From contig NZ_BJDH01000007.1 in NCBI RefSeq assembly GCF_005405005.1, positions 1 to 41,136 of the forward strand: 41,136 bases of DNA. The letters are read 5' to 3'. Below are positions 548 to 41,136 of the stretch, in pieces (the stretch's first letter is position 1; each line of letters starts with the position of its first letter). The stretch comes from Lactiplantibacillus daoliensis (lineage in GTDB: Bacteria > Bacillota > Bacilli > Lactobacillales > Lactobacillaceae). The translations under genes and the position numbers were made by a program. The notes beneath the pieces were generated by a model. That model was not told the DNA's origin. It made no database searches and saw only the letters and a program-made list of their open reading frames with translations.

Positions 548-2101
<1,554 letters not shown>

Positions 2102-8334: not shown

Positions 8335-8466
8335 TGGTAGCAGCCCCCTTCATTAAATTAATTTCATTTTAAATATGATTCTACGACCGTGTGGCGTAAG
8401 ACACTGAATTCAGTCACTCAATCTATTCGCTGGTCACAAATTACTTAGTCAAAACTAGTCGATGAC

Positions 8467-8870
8467 TGCCGCTTCCGATTGTTGCTGATAACATGCGGAC
8501 GAGAGACCGGTTCAAGCCTTGGAAACGTCTTGACCCTCGCCCGGAAGCTTTGCCAAACCCGTAAATTTCCCGAACCGTCCGTGGTGTAAGACCGGAAAAA
8601 AACGCCGGTCAAACGCCACCTGCACGTCCGATGCCATCAGTAACAGTCTCCAACTAATCAGTGCCCCTTTTTTGGATAAATCAGTTATTTATCTTGGCGG
8701 AGTCAGTCAAAATCGGTGTGCAGTGTCGGCGAGATTAGTCAGCGTTCTTAGTTGACTAATCTCGCGGGGCAATTCAAAGACGTGTTTCGTCGGCTTTGAA
8801 TTGAGGTGCCAGACCGTCCTTTGGCTGGCACCGTCCCCCACAGCACACCGATTTTGACAGACGGAGTGCT
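8467..8870 (+). repeat. Two-module structured intergenic repeat, copy A
   Basis: A 404-bp non-coding, GC-richer element that aligns nearly end to end with the reverse complement of 30933-31327; only a central stretch (about 8655-8695) differs. Module 1 is closed by a long stem, 8481-8501 with 8625-8644. It contains a GGTTCAAG-type hairpin and the GACCGG/CCGGTC hairpin (about 8610). Module 2 is closed by 24-base arms (8702-8725 with 8839-8862, 22 paired). It encloses a perfect 13-bp stem (8729-8741 with 8753-8765), CAATTCAAAG/CTTTGAATTG and GGTGCCAG/CTGGCACC. It is not a known rRNA, tRNA or IS to my knowledge. It lies between the yabR terminator and tilS. The flanks 8335-8466 and 8871-8961 hold no gene; a 12-base palindrome is at 8403-8414. 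Confidence 0.85.
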
Positions 8871-8961
8871 GAACTTTGGCAAGTCTACTTTAGACGTCAT
8901 GGTTACTGGTAATGTGACATTTGTGATGTTTTTAAGTCTTGCAACCTTTAGTTCTTAAACT

Positions 8962-16545: not shown

Positions 16546-17066
16546 TGTTACCTGAACTATTTTGAAGCTGGAATAAAACACTAAATATTGATAGCACAAC
16601 TAAAAGTTGCAATTTGCGGAAAATGGACTTTATAAAAAAGCATCTGGTTGAAGTGAGCCCTCTTTGTTGGACACAAATTTATGCTGCCCGTTGGATGACG
16701 ATTTCCCGATAACCATTTTTATCACGTTTGATTGGTGGAATCACGCCAATTAAATTTGAGACACCTTTTCGATTCATGGACACTTACTTGCTTCATTAAT
16801 TGATGTATTCATCATAAACCCTGCACTTAACTCCCTAGCAAGAAAAAGAGTCATTTTTTACGCTTAGATAGAACAGGGCTTTATTTACTAACCGTGAAAC
16901 TTCGACTTTGAAATTACGATTAAGCCGCAGAAATCACTTTATCTGCGCTCAGAATTGATAAAGCACACAAAAATTTACTTTTGTTCTTACTAGCTTCAGA
17001 GTGGTTACACAACAAGAAGTTATGACACTGATGGTTTAAACATTCCAAACAATTGAACAGCTAGTA
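16546..17066. other. Gene-free spacer with an IS3-like end
   Basis: No convincing gene. At about 16651-16690 the sequence GAAGTGAGCCC, then TTGGACA, then AAATTTATGCT resembles an IS3-family terminal repeat. It aligns base for base over much of its length with 39232-39271 in the same orientation. A short minus-strand open frame follows it but resembles nothing I recognise. The rest is AT-rich and flanked by inverted copies of the short and long repeat, so the spacer may have been rearranged by insertion and loss. Confidence 0.45.
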
Positions 17067-24169: not shown

Positions 24170-24679
24170 CTATTTACCAATCCGTTCGCTAAACCGTAAA
24201 ACCCGGTTCAAGCCATACATGATTGGTGCCGTAATCGACATAATGATCAATTCTGATAATGCGGTCGTAAGGTAAGTTGGCCAAAAGGCAGTCGCACCAC
24301 CGACGAGCATGAGCATCCAAGCAATCATGCACATCGACAACGTGAACAAAATAATGTTTAAAACCATCCGTTGCCAAATTTTTTTCAGCTTGGGACCTAG
24401 CCAGCTGACGACTAACAAGGCTAGCAAGGATTGACCCCCACCAAACACCACGTTAAGTAAACTGGCACCGGGACCAAAGGCATCGAATAAAACAACCCCG
24501 GCAACAATTCCCCAAATGTATTTCCGATTAAAAACGACTAAATGATTCAACCCTTCTGAAACTCGGAATTGAATCGCTCCCGATGCTAAATTAAACGCTG
24601 CGGGACCGACGGATAGCACGATATAAATAGCCGCGACTAAAGCATTAATAATCCACGGCCGAATTTTTGACTGCGTCAT
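24170..24679 (-). CDS. queT: QueT-family ECF transporter S component (queuosine precursor uptake)
   Basis: Membrane substrate-binding component of an energy-coupling factor transporter, expected to import a queuosine precursor (preQ1, preQ0 or queuine) for tRNA modification. The 169-residue product has five or six hydrophobic segments. It also has the family pattern AIQFRVSEGLNHLVVFNRKYIWGI at about 35-58 (split here as AIQFRVSEGLNHL then VVFNRKYIWGI). The start is ATG 24679, with AGGAGG ten bases upstream. That ribosome binding site overlaps the tail of a preQ1-I riboswitch, which supports the substrate assignment. It is monocistronic, with its own terminator. The shared ECF ATPases and the T component must be encoded elsewhere. 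Confidence 0.9.
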   Translation of the reverse strand: MTQSKIRPWIINALVAAIYIVLSVGPAAFNLASGAIQFRVSEGLNHLVVFNRKYIWGIVAGVVLFDAFGPGASLLNVVFGGGQSLLALLVVSWLGPKLKKIWQRMVLNIILFTLSMCMIAWMLMLVGGATAFWPTYLTTALSELIIMSITAPIMYGLNRVLRFSERIGK

Positions 24680-24692
24680 CTACTGAACGCCT

Positions 24693-24730
24693 CCTAGTTT
24701 TTTTAACGTGGGATGGTTACGAACCACGTT
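24693..24730 (-). promoter_or_regulatory. preQ1-I riboswitch controlling queT
   Basis: On the minus strand the stem ACGTGG / CCACGT encloses the loop TTCGTAACCATC and is followed by TTAAAAAAACTAGGAGG. The A-rich tail ending in CTAGG is the pseudoknot strand of the preQ1-I class. The Bacillus queC aptamer has the same GG-UUC...CCC and AAAAAACUA arrangement. The tail runs directly into the queT ribosome binding site, so bound preQ1 should block translation; no terminator hairpin is present. Confidence 0.85.
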
Positions 24731-24805
24731 TTGAAAATGACAAGCGGCTTATATCATAGCACGCAGTCGGTTCAGTCGCAAATCTGTCACTGTTTACTTA
24801 TTGCC

Positions 24806-30895: not shown

Positions 30896-30932
30896 AACCG
30901 TATTTTAGTTTAAGTTTGAAAGGTACAAATTT

Positions 30933-31327
30933 AGCGCTCCGTCAGTCAAAACCAGTGTGCTGTGGGGGACGGTGCCAGCCGAAGTACGGTCTGCCGCCTC
31001 AATTCCAAGCCGACAAAACACGTCTTTGAATTGCCCCGCAAGATCGGTCAGCCAAGAACGCCGACTAATCTTGCCGACACTGCACACTGATTTTGACTGA
31101 CTCCGCTAAGCGTAAACAACTTCAAAACTACTGATTAGTTGGAGGTTGTTGCTGATAGCATCGGACGTGCTGGTGGCGTTAGACCGGCGTTTCTTTTGCC
31201 GGCCTTACACCACGGACGGCCCGGGAGATTTGCGGTTTTGGCAAAGCTTTCGGGCGAGGTTCAAGACGTTTCTAAGGCTTGAACCGGTCCCTCGTCCGCA
31301 TGTTATCGGCAACAACCGGAAGCGGCA
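30933..31327 (-). repeat. Two-module structured intergenic repeat, copy B
   Basis: A 395-bp inverted copy of the element at 8467-8870. In element sense (minus strand) module 1 is closed by 31293-31313 with 31148-31167, and module 2 by 31078-31101 with 30941-30964. The inner hairpin is 31063-31074 with 31038-31049. Several substitutions relative to copy A keep pairing: in the inner stem a G-C pair becomes A-T (31072 with 31040), and in the outer stem a G-C pair also becomes A-T. The central stretch between modules differs from copy A. It lies between murF and the gene at 31377. No protein is encoded. Confidence 0.85.
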
Positions 31328-31376
31328 ATTTTTAACTTTCAATCTTTAGTTAACTTAATTAAAGCCCACGTTTAAC

Positions 31377-35877: not shown

Positions 35878-36123
35878 TTATTTGAGACCGTATTTTTTGT
35901 TGAAACGATCGACCGCACCATCGGCTTTGGTGAACTTTTGTTTACCAGTGTAGAATGGATGTGAGTCTGAAGTAACTTCGACCCGGATTAATGGGTAAGT
36001 GTTACCGTCTTCCCATTCAACAGTTTCGTCAGACGTTGCTGTTGAACCAGAGATGAACTTGAAACCAGTTGTTGAATCTTGGAAAACAACTTGGTGGTAA
36101 TCTGGATGGATTCCTTTTTGCAT
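35878..36123 (-). CDS. rpmE2: Ribosomal protein bL31, type B
   Basis: Component of the 50S subunit that bridges the head of 30S. The 81-residue protein begins [16 protein letters not shown] and lacks the CxxC zinc-binding cysteines of the standard form. It ends in the type B pattern [27 protein letters not shown] (given in parts: [19 protein letters not shown]). Type B L31 is typically used when zinc is limiting, or constitutively in lactobacilli that lack the other form. Start ATG 36123 has AAGGAG upstream. The gene follows rho by 136 bases and ends at a bidirectional terminator. It is named rpmE2 here; some genomes call it rpmE. Confidence 0.97.
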
Positions 36124-36230
36124 AATATTACGCTCCTTTGCCCTGAATCATTTGCTGAAACAGAGATTATCATTTGTTTTAAATCAACCTTTGTATTCTA
36201 TCATATCTGCTAATTGCCCGTCAAGAGTCT

Positions 36231-39705: not shown

Positions 39706-41136
39706 TTAATGTGAGCGACGCCGAATAAATGGTGTTGCCAACAGTGCCAACAAGGCTACCCCGATTCCGGCCAATAAACTCTCATTCTTTTGACCAGTTT
39801 GTGGCAACTCTGTTTGCTGCTGATTTGGCTTCGCCTTCTGTTGAGACTGTACATGTCCAGTTGCAGTAATATCACTTGCCACTGACTGTGCACTGTTTGT
39901 ACCTTGAGCCAAAGTCTGCTCACGTACACCATTGCCTTGGTTTACACCATCATTCTGTGACGTTACCTGCTGACTACTTGCTTTAGCAGCAAGTTGACGT
40001 GTAAATGAAGGCTCCGTCCCAGCTTTATCAAACTTGACGATTATTTTACCACCGATACCGTCTGCTAACGTGACTTCCGAAGCATTAGGATCGATTGTTT
40101 GTTGAGCAACCGTCTTACCATTTCGTTGTACCGTTACCGTCCGTTGACCAGTGGCTGGATCGTAAGTGTACGTCGTCGTATCACCATCGGTCCACTGCTT
40201 AACGACTTTGACAACATTGCCATCGGCGTCTGTCGTCGTAGCAGTGACGTTACCAGACTTATCAGTTGCTGTCTGCGTCGTGTCATGTTCAAAAGTTGGT
40301 TCAGTACCGGGTTGCCCAGCATTAACGATCGTTTCAACACCTTTTCCAGCAGATAATGTTGCTTTCGCTGTATTGGGATCAATCGTCTGTTGGTCAACCG
40401 TTTGACCATCCTTTTGTTCCGTCACAGTCTGATTACCAGTGATTGGATCGTAAGCATAAGTTGTCGTATCGCCATCGGTCCACTGCTTAACCACTTTGAC
40501 AACATTACCATTGGCATCTTTCGTCGTAGTAGTCACGTTGCCAGACTTATCAGTAGTGGTCTGCGTCGTCTTGTGTTCAAACGTTGGTTCTGCACCTGGT
40601 TGACCAGTATTAACGATAGTTTCAACCCCATCACCACTCTTCAACGTTGCCGTCGTCGGATTGTCAGTGTTAATAGTCTTTTTATCGACCGTATTACCAT
40701 CCTTTTGTTCCGTTACCGTTTGCGTCTTAGTAGCTGGATCATACTTGTAAGCTGTCGTACTCCCATCGGTCCACTTCTTGGTGACATTGATAACATTGCC
40801 GGCATCATCTTTCGTCGTGGCGGTAATGTTACCAGCCTTGTCTGTCGTCGTCTGCGTCGTGTCGTGTTCAAACGTTGGTTGTGACCCTGGTTGTCCAGTG
40901 TTAACGGTGGTTTTAGCATCATCTACAGCAGATACGGTTGCTTTGGTGGTTCCCTTTTTAATTGACTGCTCGTTTGTCTTACCGTCTTTTTGTTCCGTCA
41001 CTGTCCGGTCCCCACTAGCTGGATCGTAGGTATAAGTCGTCTGACTATCATCAGGCCACTGCTTAACTACCTTAATAACATTGCCGTTGGCATCTGTCGT
41101 CGTAGTAGTGTCACCATCAGTCTTCGTCGTATCATG
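39706..41136 (-). CDS. LPXTG cell-wall protein with 95-97-residue repeats (5' end outside window)
   Basis: The reading frame is open to the right edge, so only the C-terminal 476 residues are visible. A GTG codon near 41001 is internal, not a start. At least four copies of a Thr-rich repeat of 95-97 residues are seen. Each copy has the landmarks VTEQKDG, VNTGQPG, PTFEHDTTQTTTDKAGN, then WTDGDTTTYTYDP. A Gln/Ser-rich stalk follows, then the sorting signal LPQTG, a hydrophobic helix and RRRSH. This indicates a secreted, sortase-anchored surface protein. The repeats resemble no named domain I can identify; the YDP...VTEQ strand pattern faintly recalls YD repeats. Adhesion or a spacer stalk is a guess. 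Near-identical repeats invite copy-number change. Confidence 0.85.
   Translation of the reverse strand, partial: HDTTKTDGDTTTTTDANGNVIKVVKQWPDDSQTTYTYDPASGDRTVTEQKDGKTNEQSIKKGTTKATVSAVDDAKTTVNTGQPGSQPTFEHDTTQTTTDKAGNITATTKDDAGNVINVTKKWTDGSTTAYKYDPATKTQTVTEQKDGNTVDKKTINTDNPTTATLKSGDGVETIVNTGQPGAEPTFEHKTTQTTTDKSGNVTTTTKDANGNVVKVVKQWTDGDTTTYAYDPITGNQTVTEQKDGQTVDQQTIDPNTAKATLSAGKGVETIVNAGQPGTEPTFEHDTTQTATDKSGNVTATTTDADGNVVKVVKQWTDGDTTTYTYDPATGQRTVTVQRNGKTVAQQTIDPNASEVTLADGIGGKIIVKFDKAGTEPSFTRQLAAKASSQQVTSQNDGVNQGNGVREQTLAQGTNSAQSVASDITATGHVQSQQKAKPNQQQTELPQTGQKNESLLAGIGVALLALLATPFIRRRSH

Follow-up and report, generated by a model that had tools for sequence, protein, structure and literature searches.

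The 41,136-nt stretch of Lactiplantibacillus daoliensis DNA analyzed here (the window) contains a folded block that recurs in inverted orientation, and the question raised by this locus is what kind of repeat the two copies represent. An earlier note, made from the sequence alone, had left a structured RNA family, a large MITE and a REP-like chromosomal element as options.

The two window copies and the size of the family

Positions 8467-8876 and the reverse complement of 30927-31327 aligned over three gap-free segments (134, 67 and 184 nt) that were 89-90% complementary, as expected for the inverted pair reported earlier. Both copies carry the two folding modules, here M1 and M2, that had been proposed together with a linker (Table 1), and neither block is overlapped by an ORF of at least 80 aa, in keeping with its description as non-coding. 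The statement that the copies lack transposase ends proved to be wrong. Terminal inverted repeats (TIRs) exist outside the coordinates reported at that time, and were missed because the boundaries had been drawn at the folded core. A weak TIR-like site was also seen at window position 16600.

Table 1. Parts of the two element copies in the window and the evidence by which each was placed.
Feature	Position	Strand	Evidence
Element copy 1, left TIR unrecognizable, right TIR present	8432..8951	+	Arm and module profile matches on L001, right TIR site
Left-arm remnant, copy 1 (model positions 43-82 of 82)	8432..8471	+	nhmmer arm5, 23 bits
Module M1, copy 1: closing stem and hairpins	8466..8660	+	Covariance model R2, 218.4 bits
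Variable linker between M1 and M2, copy 1	8661..8692	.	Gap between R2 and R1 matches
Module M2, copy 1: long closing stem, three hairpins	8693..8870	+	Covariance model R1, 202.3 bits
Right arm, copy 1	8860..8952	+	nhmmer arm3, 82 bits
Right TIR, copy 1, minus strand CTAAAGGTTGCAAGAC	8936..8951	-	Pattern match, 1 mismatch
Element copy 2, 441 bp, arms shortened by deletion, both TIRs	30909..31349	-	TIR pair on L027, modules
Left TIR, copy 2, CTAAAGATTGAAAGTT	31334..31349	-	TIR pattern match
Module M1, copy 2	31132..31328	-	R2, 235.1 bits
Module M2, copy 2	30933..31110	-	R1, 198.6 bits
Right TIR, copy 2, degenerate, CTTTCAAACTTAAA	30909..30922	-	TIR pair on L027

The earlier note had predicted many more copies and named a covariance-model search as the way to look for them. 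Using models of M2 (R1, 40 sequences) and M1 (R2, 41 sequences), we found further copies in L. daoliensis and in its relatives, with about 100 loci, by hand count, in the 2.63-Mb draft genome of L. daoliensis. At least 89 places carried M1 (R2) and at least 13 additional loci carried M2 only, one of which (C3:81863) perhaps belongs to another subfamily; R1 identified at least 81 distinct M2 places, partial ones included. These places were counted by hand among 150 scored candidates of 949 and of 871 in the module searches, and antisense duplicates, two cross-hits and M1 matches below about 40 bits were set aside. BLASTN with copy 1 as query detected at least 39 other long copies in the same genome (E 5e-162 to 7e-123), a count based on 40 scored of 116 first-look candidates with copy 1 itself among the long copies. 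One locus of this genome, L084, contained two inverted M1 modules, at 1203-1397 (+) and 1681-1871 (-), and no recognized M2.

Within the genus, R1 matches were present in 17 of 21 genomes at E 0.001, L. daoliensis included, with up to 125 per genome and on both strands. At E 1e-5, 26 of 201 sampled genomes of the family had matches, representing 7 of 40 genera, two of them with one match each. Among six named matches, one, Lactiplantibacillus nangangensis record L058, carries a module. No DNA matches to the repeat were found in plasmids or phages. Loci L160, L161, L162 and L163 (from G015, G019, G012 and G005, respectively) showed related modules of ~150 nt without the third hairpin; they occur in several copies in some genomes, and L161 lies beside a tRNA cluster. 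Inverted pairs of 3.8 kb in another genus, considered as a candidate autonomous element, were rejected, as each consists of two separate elements flanking other genes, which we take to be rluD-like, terC-like and lactate-oxidase-like.

Terminal repeats, target duplications and an IS4-family partner

Alignment of 30 oriented copies revealed conserved arms beyond the core reported earlier, the left arm starting with (AA)CTAAAGGTTGAAAGTTAAAAATTG and the right arm ending with CTTTCAACCTTTAG(TT). Where both TIRs were recognized, the unit mostly measured 510-570 bp with 14-bp terminal repeats (CTAAAGGTTGAAAG), and the consensus element is 564 bp, counting two flanking bases per side. A TIR with at most three edits in 10 bases was present on both sides of 44 of 45 L. 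daoliensis elements, a set chosen for arm matches that reach both ends, which favors TIRs, and from which L078 was dropped. In the L. daoliensis elements, the 8 bases flanking the two ends matched at a frequency of 0.55, compared to 0.38 with shuffled partners (maximum 0.44); 7 bases gave 0.56 versus 0.39 (maximum 0.47) and 9 bases gave 0.37 versus 0.32. In the related genome G020, 17 of 18 fetched repeat loci, picked by TIR or module matches, had both TIRs nearly perfect, and by eye the flanks of 13 of these 17 elements matched over 7-8 bp. No convincing TIR was seen around 11 cassettes of other genera.

An autonomous partner was found at locus L229 of G020 (827-2393), where a 1567-bp insertion sequence (IS) with the TIR CTAAAGGTTGAAAC/CTTTCAACCTTTAG is bordered by a 7-bp duplication (ATAGGAG). 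Its 457-aa protein matched the NCBIfam IS4 family NF049925 with 460.3 bits (cutoff 250) and the Pfam domains DDE_5 (80 bits) and DDE_Tnp_1 (54 bits). The IS has only 13-25 bp at its ends in common with the MITE and lacks folded modules. At E 1e-60, transposase matches occurred in four of the 21 genus genomes (G020, G008, G019 and G010), and the loci with MITE ends (L229, L250 and L251) are all outside L. daoliensis. The G008 match has 56% identity and a TIR identical to that of the MITE; the G019 match has 57% identity, one stop, an identical TIR and a flanking 9-bp repeat; the G010 match is in two pieces with a near-identical TIR. A second, partial transposase match in G020 had no such TIR. 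Among four plasmid relatives of the IS, taken from other records, three possess the related TIR CTGAAACTTGAAAG, and other inverted repeats dominate in the fourth. The L. daoliensis draft genome had no transposase match at E 1e-60. Thirteen of its regions around leftover TIR-like sites, drawn from 100 of 102 such sites, were remnants or apparent chance matches, and no transposase was found among the ORFs of three of them.

Taken as a whole, these observations are best explained, in our view with good confidence, by non-autonomous transposable elements (large MITEs) that carry a cargo cassette. Because an IS4-family IS of related species has the ends of the MITE and no modules, the elements were most likely moved in trans, the IS4-family transposase acting on matching ends and thereby moving a non-coding element. 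Since L. daoliensis lacks the transposase, mobility there would be past or would need another source; in addition, a transposase in four of 21 genus genomes versus a cassette in 17 implies that other movers exist or existed. Of the three options in the earlier note, the large MITE was borne out by the TIRs, by the 7-8 bp target-site duplications for which a check had been suggested, by an empty orthologous site (below) and by the autonomous IS4-family partner with matching ends; the structured family holds for the fold of the cargo, and the REP-like element lacks support. REP and REPIN sequences go with a RAYT partner. We rejected the REP-like reading because the unit is ~550 bp with TIRs and target duplication and is not a short palindrome; REPs are 20-40 bp palindromes in the portion of the source available to us (PMC3733652).

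Window copy 1 adjoins a yabR-like gene (S1 domain) that is followed by a tilS-like gene (PP-loop) in all 21 genus genomes, these names being our reading of Pfam matches. The gap between the two genes is 117 nt in G004, where the site is empty, versus 537 nt in G016, where it is filled by a TIR-bounded insertion with M2 inside, located just behind the yabR terminator and flanked by an imperfect repeat resembling a target duplication. In nine other genomes the gap is 112-163 nt long. Module matches at this site were obtained in G000, G010, G016, G007 (26 bits) and G015 (9 bits only). The profiles detected no module there in 16 of 21 genomes, including several with longer gaps (G020, G013, G003, G019 and others), with the proviso that diverged families could escape them. 

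More generally, the elements are intergenic and often lie directly behind an intrinsic terminator. A strong hairpin plus T-run preceded 17 left ends and 12 right ends, out of 44 each, as raw counts, against a mean of 0.45 for shuffled left flanks. The G020 IS copy also seems to lie behind a terminator. Among 89 placed L. daoliensis copies, 38 were between convergent genes, 27 and 15 were co-directional and 9 were between divergent genes; here the ORFs were taken mechanically, the counts are raw, and 3 edge loci and 11 short-flank loci (three duplicates) were excluded. A promoter-like match in the left arm is present in both directions. Locus L209 of G010, a 924-nt yabR-tilS gap, contains two M1 modules in opposite orientation at the same terminator-adjacent site, which suggests a hot spot of insertion.

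Fold of the cassette and a second carrier family

In 40 M2 sequences, double changes occurred in 31 of 64 pairs (shuffle mean 11.8; 0 of 500 shuffles as high), and 96.6% of paired positions were paired, compared to 28-41% when the fold was slid along the alignment. For M1, 16 of 44 pairs showed double changes (shuffle mean 7.2; 0 of 500 shuffles as high). Across five genera, 54 of 64 M2 pairs had compensatory changes compared to 35.7 in shuffles, with 374 compensatory cells versus 102.8 and a score of 0.675 versus 0.228; this alignment of 24 copies, one of them from L. daoliensis, was fitted to the model, and slid versions scored just 0.07-0.11. At the level of sequence, these comparisons show that compensatory changes preserve the M2 fold across species and genera and, more weakly, that of M1. 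A recurrent AGAC...GGCT hairpin, which we read as a stem containing one bulged A, occurs twice in 35 of 40 M2 rows and once in the other 5, and is found once, on the minus strand, in 40 of 41 M1 rows.

The structured RNA family of the earlier note thus stands as far as the covariant fold of the cargo goes, a fold that may be that of an RNA. The element shows strong covariation as do the structured RNAs of Rfam 15, in which no family reached its gathering score on the window element or in 20 relative loci and matches at E up to 10 were at chance level only; a match to a described Rfam family, named beforehand as grounds for abandoning the claim, accordingly did not occur.

The two modules also resemble each other. 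In G020, R1 matched both modules on opposite strands with 152.2 and 143.1 bits, and in L037 with 138.6 and 113.7 bits (antisense 35.7); antisense R1 matches in L. daoliensis reached 69 bits. When M1 was compared with reverse-complemented M2 at the sequence level only, the score (76) stayed below the shuffled maximum (84.5) and was not significant. M1 is therefore an inverted relative of M2 on account of the covariance-model matches in relatives, and not of sequence alone.

Nearly 60 weaker R1 matches in G020 (62-91 bits, hand count) led to a second carrier family, family B. The consensus of 20 fetched loci (L259-L278) consists of the inverted module pair with different ends, TAGTGC.TTGTAGCTATCATATTTAT on one side and the complement of this on the other. 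Elements in which both ends can be read are about 470-495 bp long. Individual copies are degenerate; within three mismatches, the 26-base end occurred six times in G020 (reversed control, 0), and no target duplications were detectable at the 20 loci. The right module showed double changes in 7 of 61 pairs and 98.9% pairing, raw values without shuffles, and the left module has a weaker fold (90.7% paired over 27 pairs). Family B is older than the IS4-ended family, and no transposase partner of it was identified among the G020 loci. Because it carries the cassette between different ends, the cassette is not tied to one transposase.

Selection on the fold and competing explanations

At M2 paired sites in L. 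daoliensis, the share of cells in which the pair was kept was 0.33 for alleles seen once, 0.50 for those in two or three copies, 0.73 for four to nine and 0.80 for ten or more; the trend was weaker for M1 in parallel allele-count classes (0.40, 0.68, 0.62 and 0.52). Private substitutions at M2 paired sites were pair-breaking in 43 of 64 cells. Internal deletions have taken out hairpins or whole modules at many loci, and among the aligned elements, which numbered 117 and included 18 from G020, 54 had lost no internal stretch of 25 nt or longer. Deletion junctions were mostly unique; some were common to two to four copies, and one of these, present in two species, probably arose recurrently at short repeats. 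A few elements may thus have moved in an already shortened form. Common substitutions mostly keep M2 pairs, private ones mostly break them, and about four copies is the most in which any one deletion junction recurs. These patterns suggest that the fold was needed in the lineage that propagates and decays once a copy has inserted, which is clear for M2 and less so for M1.

Such a pattern bears on whether the copies are domesticated RNA genes, that is, host regulatory RNAs such as 3′-end stabilizers that are selected at each locus, with mobility as their origin only. Orthologous copies are retained in four close species, and their M2 rows, on which the comparison rests since misaligned M1 rows were excluded, contain 11 pair-keeping and 5 pair-breaking changes, a hint of constraint per locus. 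Copies at gene 3′ ends (convergent 38 versus divergent 9 of 89) would fit this explanation as well. Nevertheless, we consider it very improbable, given that private M2 substitutions mostly break pairs, entire modules are deleted at many loci and the yabR-tilS site has no profile-detected module in most genomes, where diverged families could escape; moreover, convergent-gene enrichment is also known for parasitic repeats of S. pneumoniae, according to the sections of PMC3049150 that were available. A long-lost transposon, of which the modules were the once transposase-bound ends and the present element a fusion of both, would account for the inverted kinship of M1 and M2, as between the ends of one element. 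This too is improbable, if somewhat less so: the TIRs match those of an IS4-family IS without modules, family B carries the cassette with other TIRs, and none of the matches listed showed a transposase enclosed by two modules.

Rather unlikely is a DNA-only account, in which the modules are palindromes and seemingly compensatory changes arise when hairpins are repaired by template switching or when copies undergo gene conversion, with no folded RNA. The many deletions of hairpins or whole modules are expected from replication across large inverted repeats, and M1 is without strand asymmetry (G-U versus A-C, 78 to 75 cells). This account is at odds with the AGAC...GGCT motif, kept rather than made into a perfect palindrome and present twice in most M2 rows, and with the excess of G-U over A-C in M2 (175 to 112 cells; more weakly by pairs, 27 to 14, p 0.06), in the right module of family B (26 to 10) and in the cross-genus M2 alignment (63 to 20), the latter having been fitted to the plus-strand model. 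Because of this excess in M2, we favor a folded plus strand, a direction in which M1 does not point. We tentatively propose, with a little less than even confidence, that the plus strand of the cassette would fold as RNA or as transient single-stranded DNA, that a host factor would bind it at the bulged-A hairpins, and that the bound fold would help the element persist or spread, e.g., by insulating its ends from incoming transcription. A broader and more doubtful extension sees in the inverted cloverleaf pair a selfish non-coding module able to move from one set of transposon ends to another across the Lactobacillaceae (IS4-type ends in one family and a different TIR of ~26 bp in another), in which case host-protein binding at the bulged-A hairpins would raise the transposition or survival of any element that carries it.

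Bacterial MITEs are usually viewed as empty shells of an insertion sequence. Here the interior is foreign to the IS with matching ends, is folded and has been preserved by compensatory changes in several genera. Whether the spread of a transposable element can benefit from a non-coding fold thereby becomes open to test in food-grade laboratory bacteria; the covariance models also annotate about 100 otherwise blank intergenic regions of L. daoliensis. The element agrees with the MITE definition in all features tested, and its lifestyle resembles that of the BOX and RUP repeats of S. pneumoniae. In the available sections of PMC3049150, BOX, RUP and SPRITE are likewise high-copy, non-coding and MITE-like with predicted RNA folds (BOX being modular), BOX and RUP TIRs are likened to those of a resident IS, and all three are enriched between convergent genes, as are the copies here by raw count. 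The same sections give these repeats a typical length of <200 bp (BOX up to 637), whereas the present element is ~550 bp with two inverted cloverleaf modules, and describe BOX and RUP TIRs that pair within the fold, whereas here the folds sit inside the arms. Unlike those repeats, this cassette is found in several genera and with two sets of ends. The bcr1 and other repeats of Bacillus cereus are also chromosomal with mobile features, bcr1 in up to 130 copies, but are 100-400 bp with a possible site-specific mechanism and TTTAT motifs in the consulted parts of PMC6542083, in contrast to the IS4-type ends and 7-8 bp duplications here. The IS4-family IS (NF049925) shares identical 14-bp ends and a similar duplication length, and differs in coding for a transposase. 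No description of the family was found in the literature, judged mostly from titles and the openings of abstracts, so that an inverted cloverleaf cassette spread over genera and between two sets of ends is apparently undescribed.

Away from the element, Rfam matches comprised a PreQ1 riboswitch, an L31 leader, a T-box and tRNAs. The PreQ1 riboswitch (window 24688-24733, minus strand, 46.2 bits) is directly upstream of the ORF at 24170-24679 (-), and the L31-Firmicutes ribosomal protein leader (36133-36165, minus strand, 42.1 bits) precedes an 81-aa ORF at 35878-36123 (-). At 40003-41124, up to four copies of a ~288-bp repeat follow one another in tandem, inside the ORF at 39706-41001 (-) and past it. 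This ORF had no Pfam matches at 1e-5; the contig end at the tandem repeat is perhaps an assembly break.
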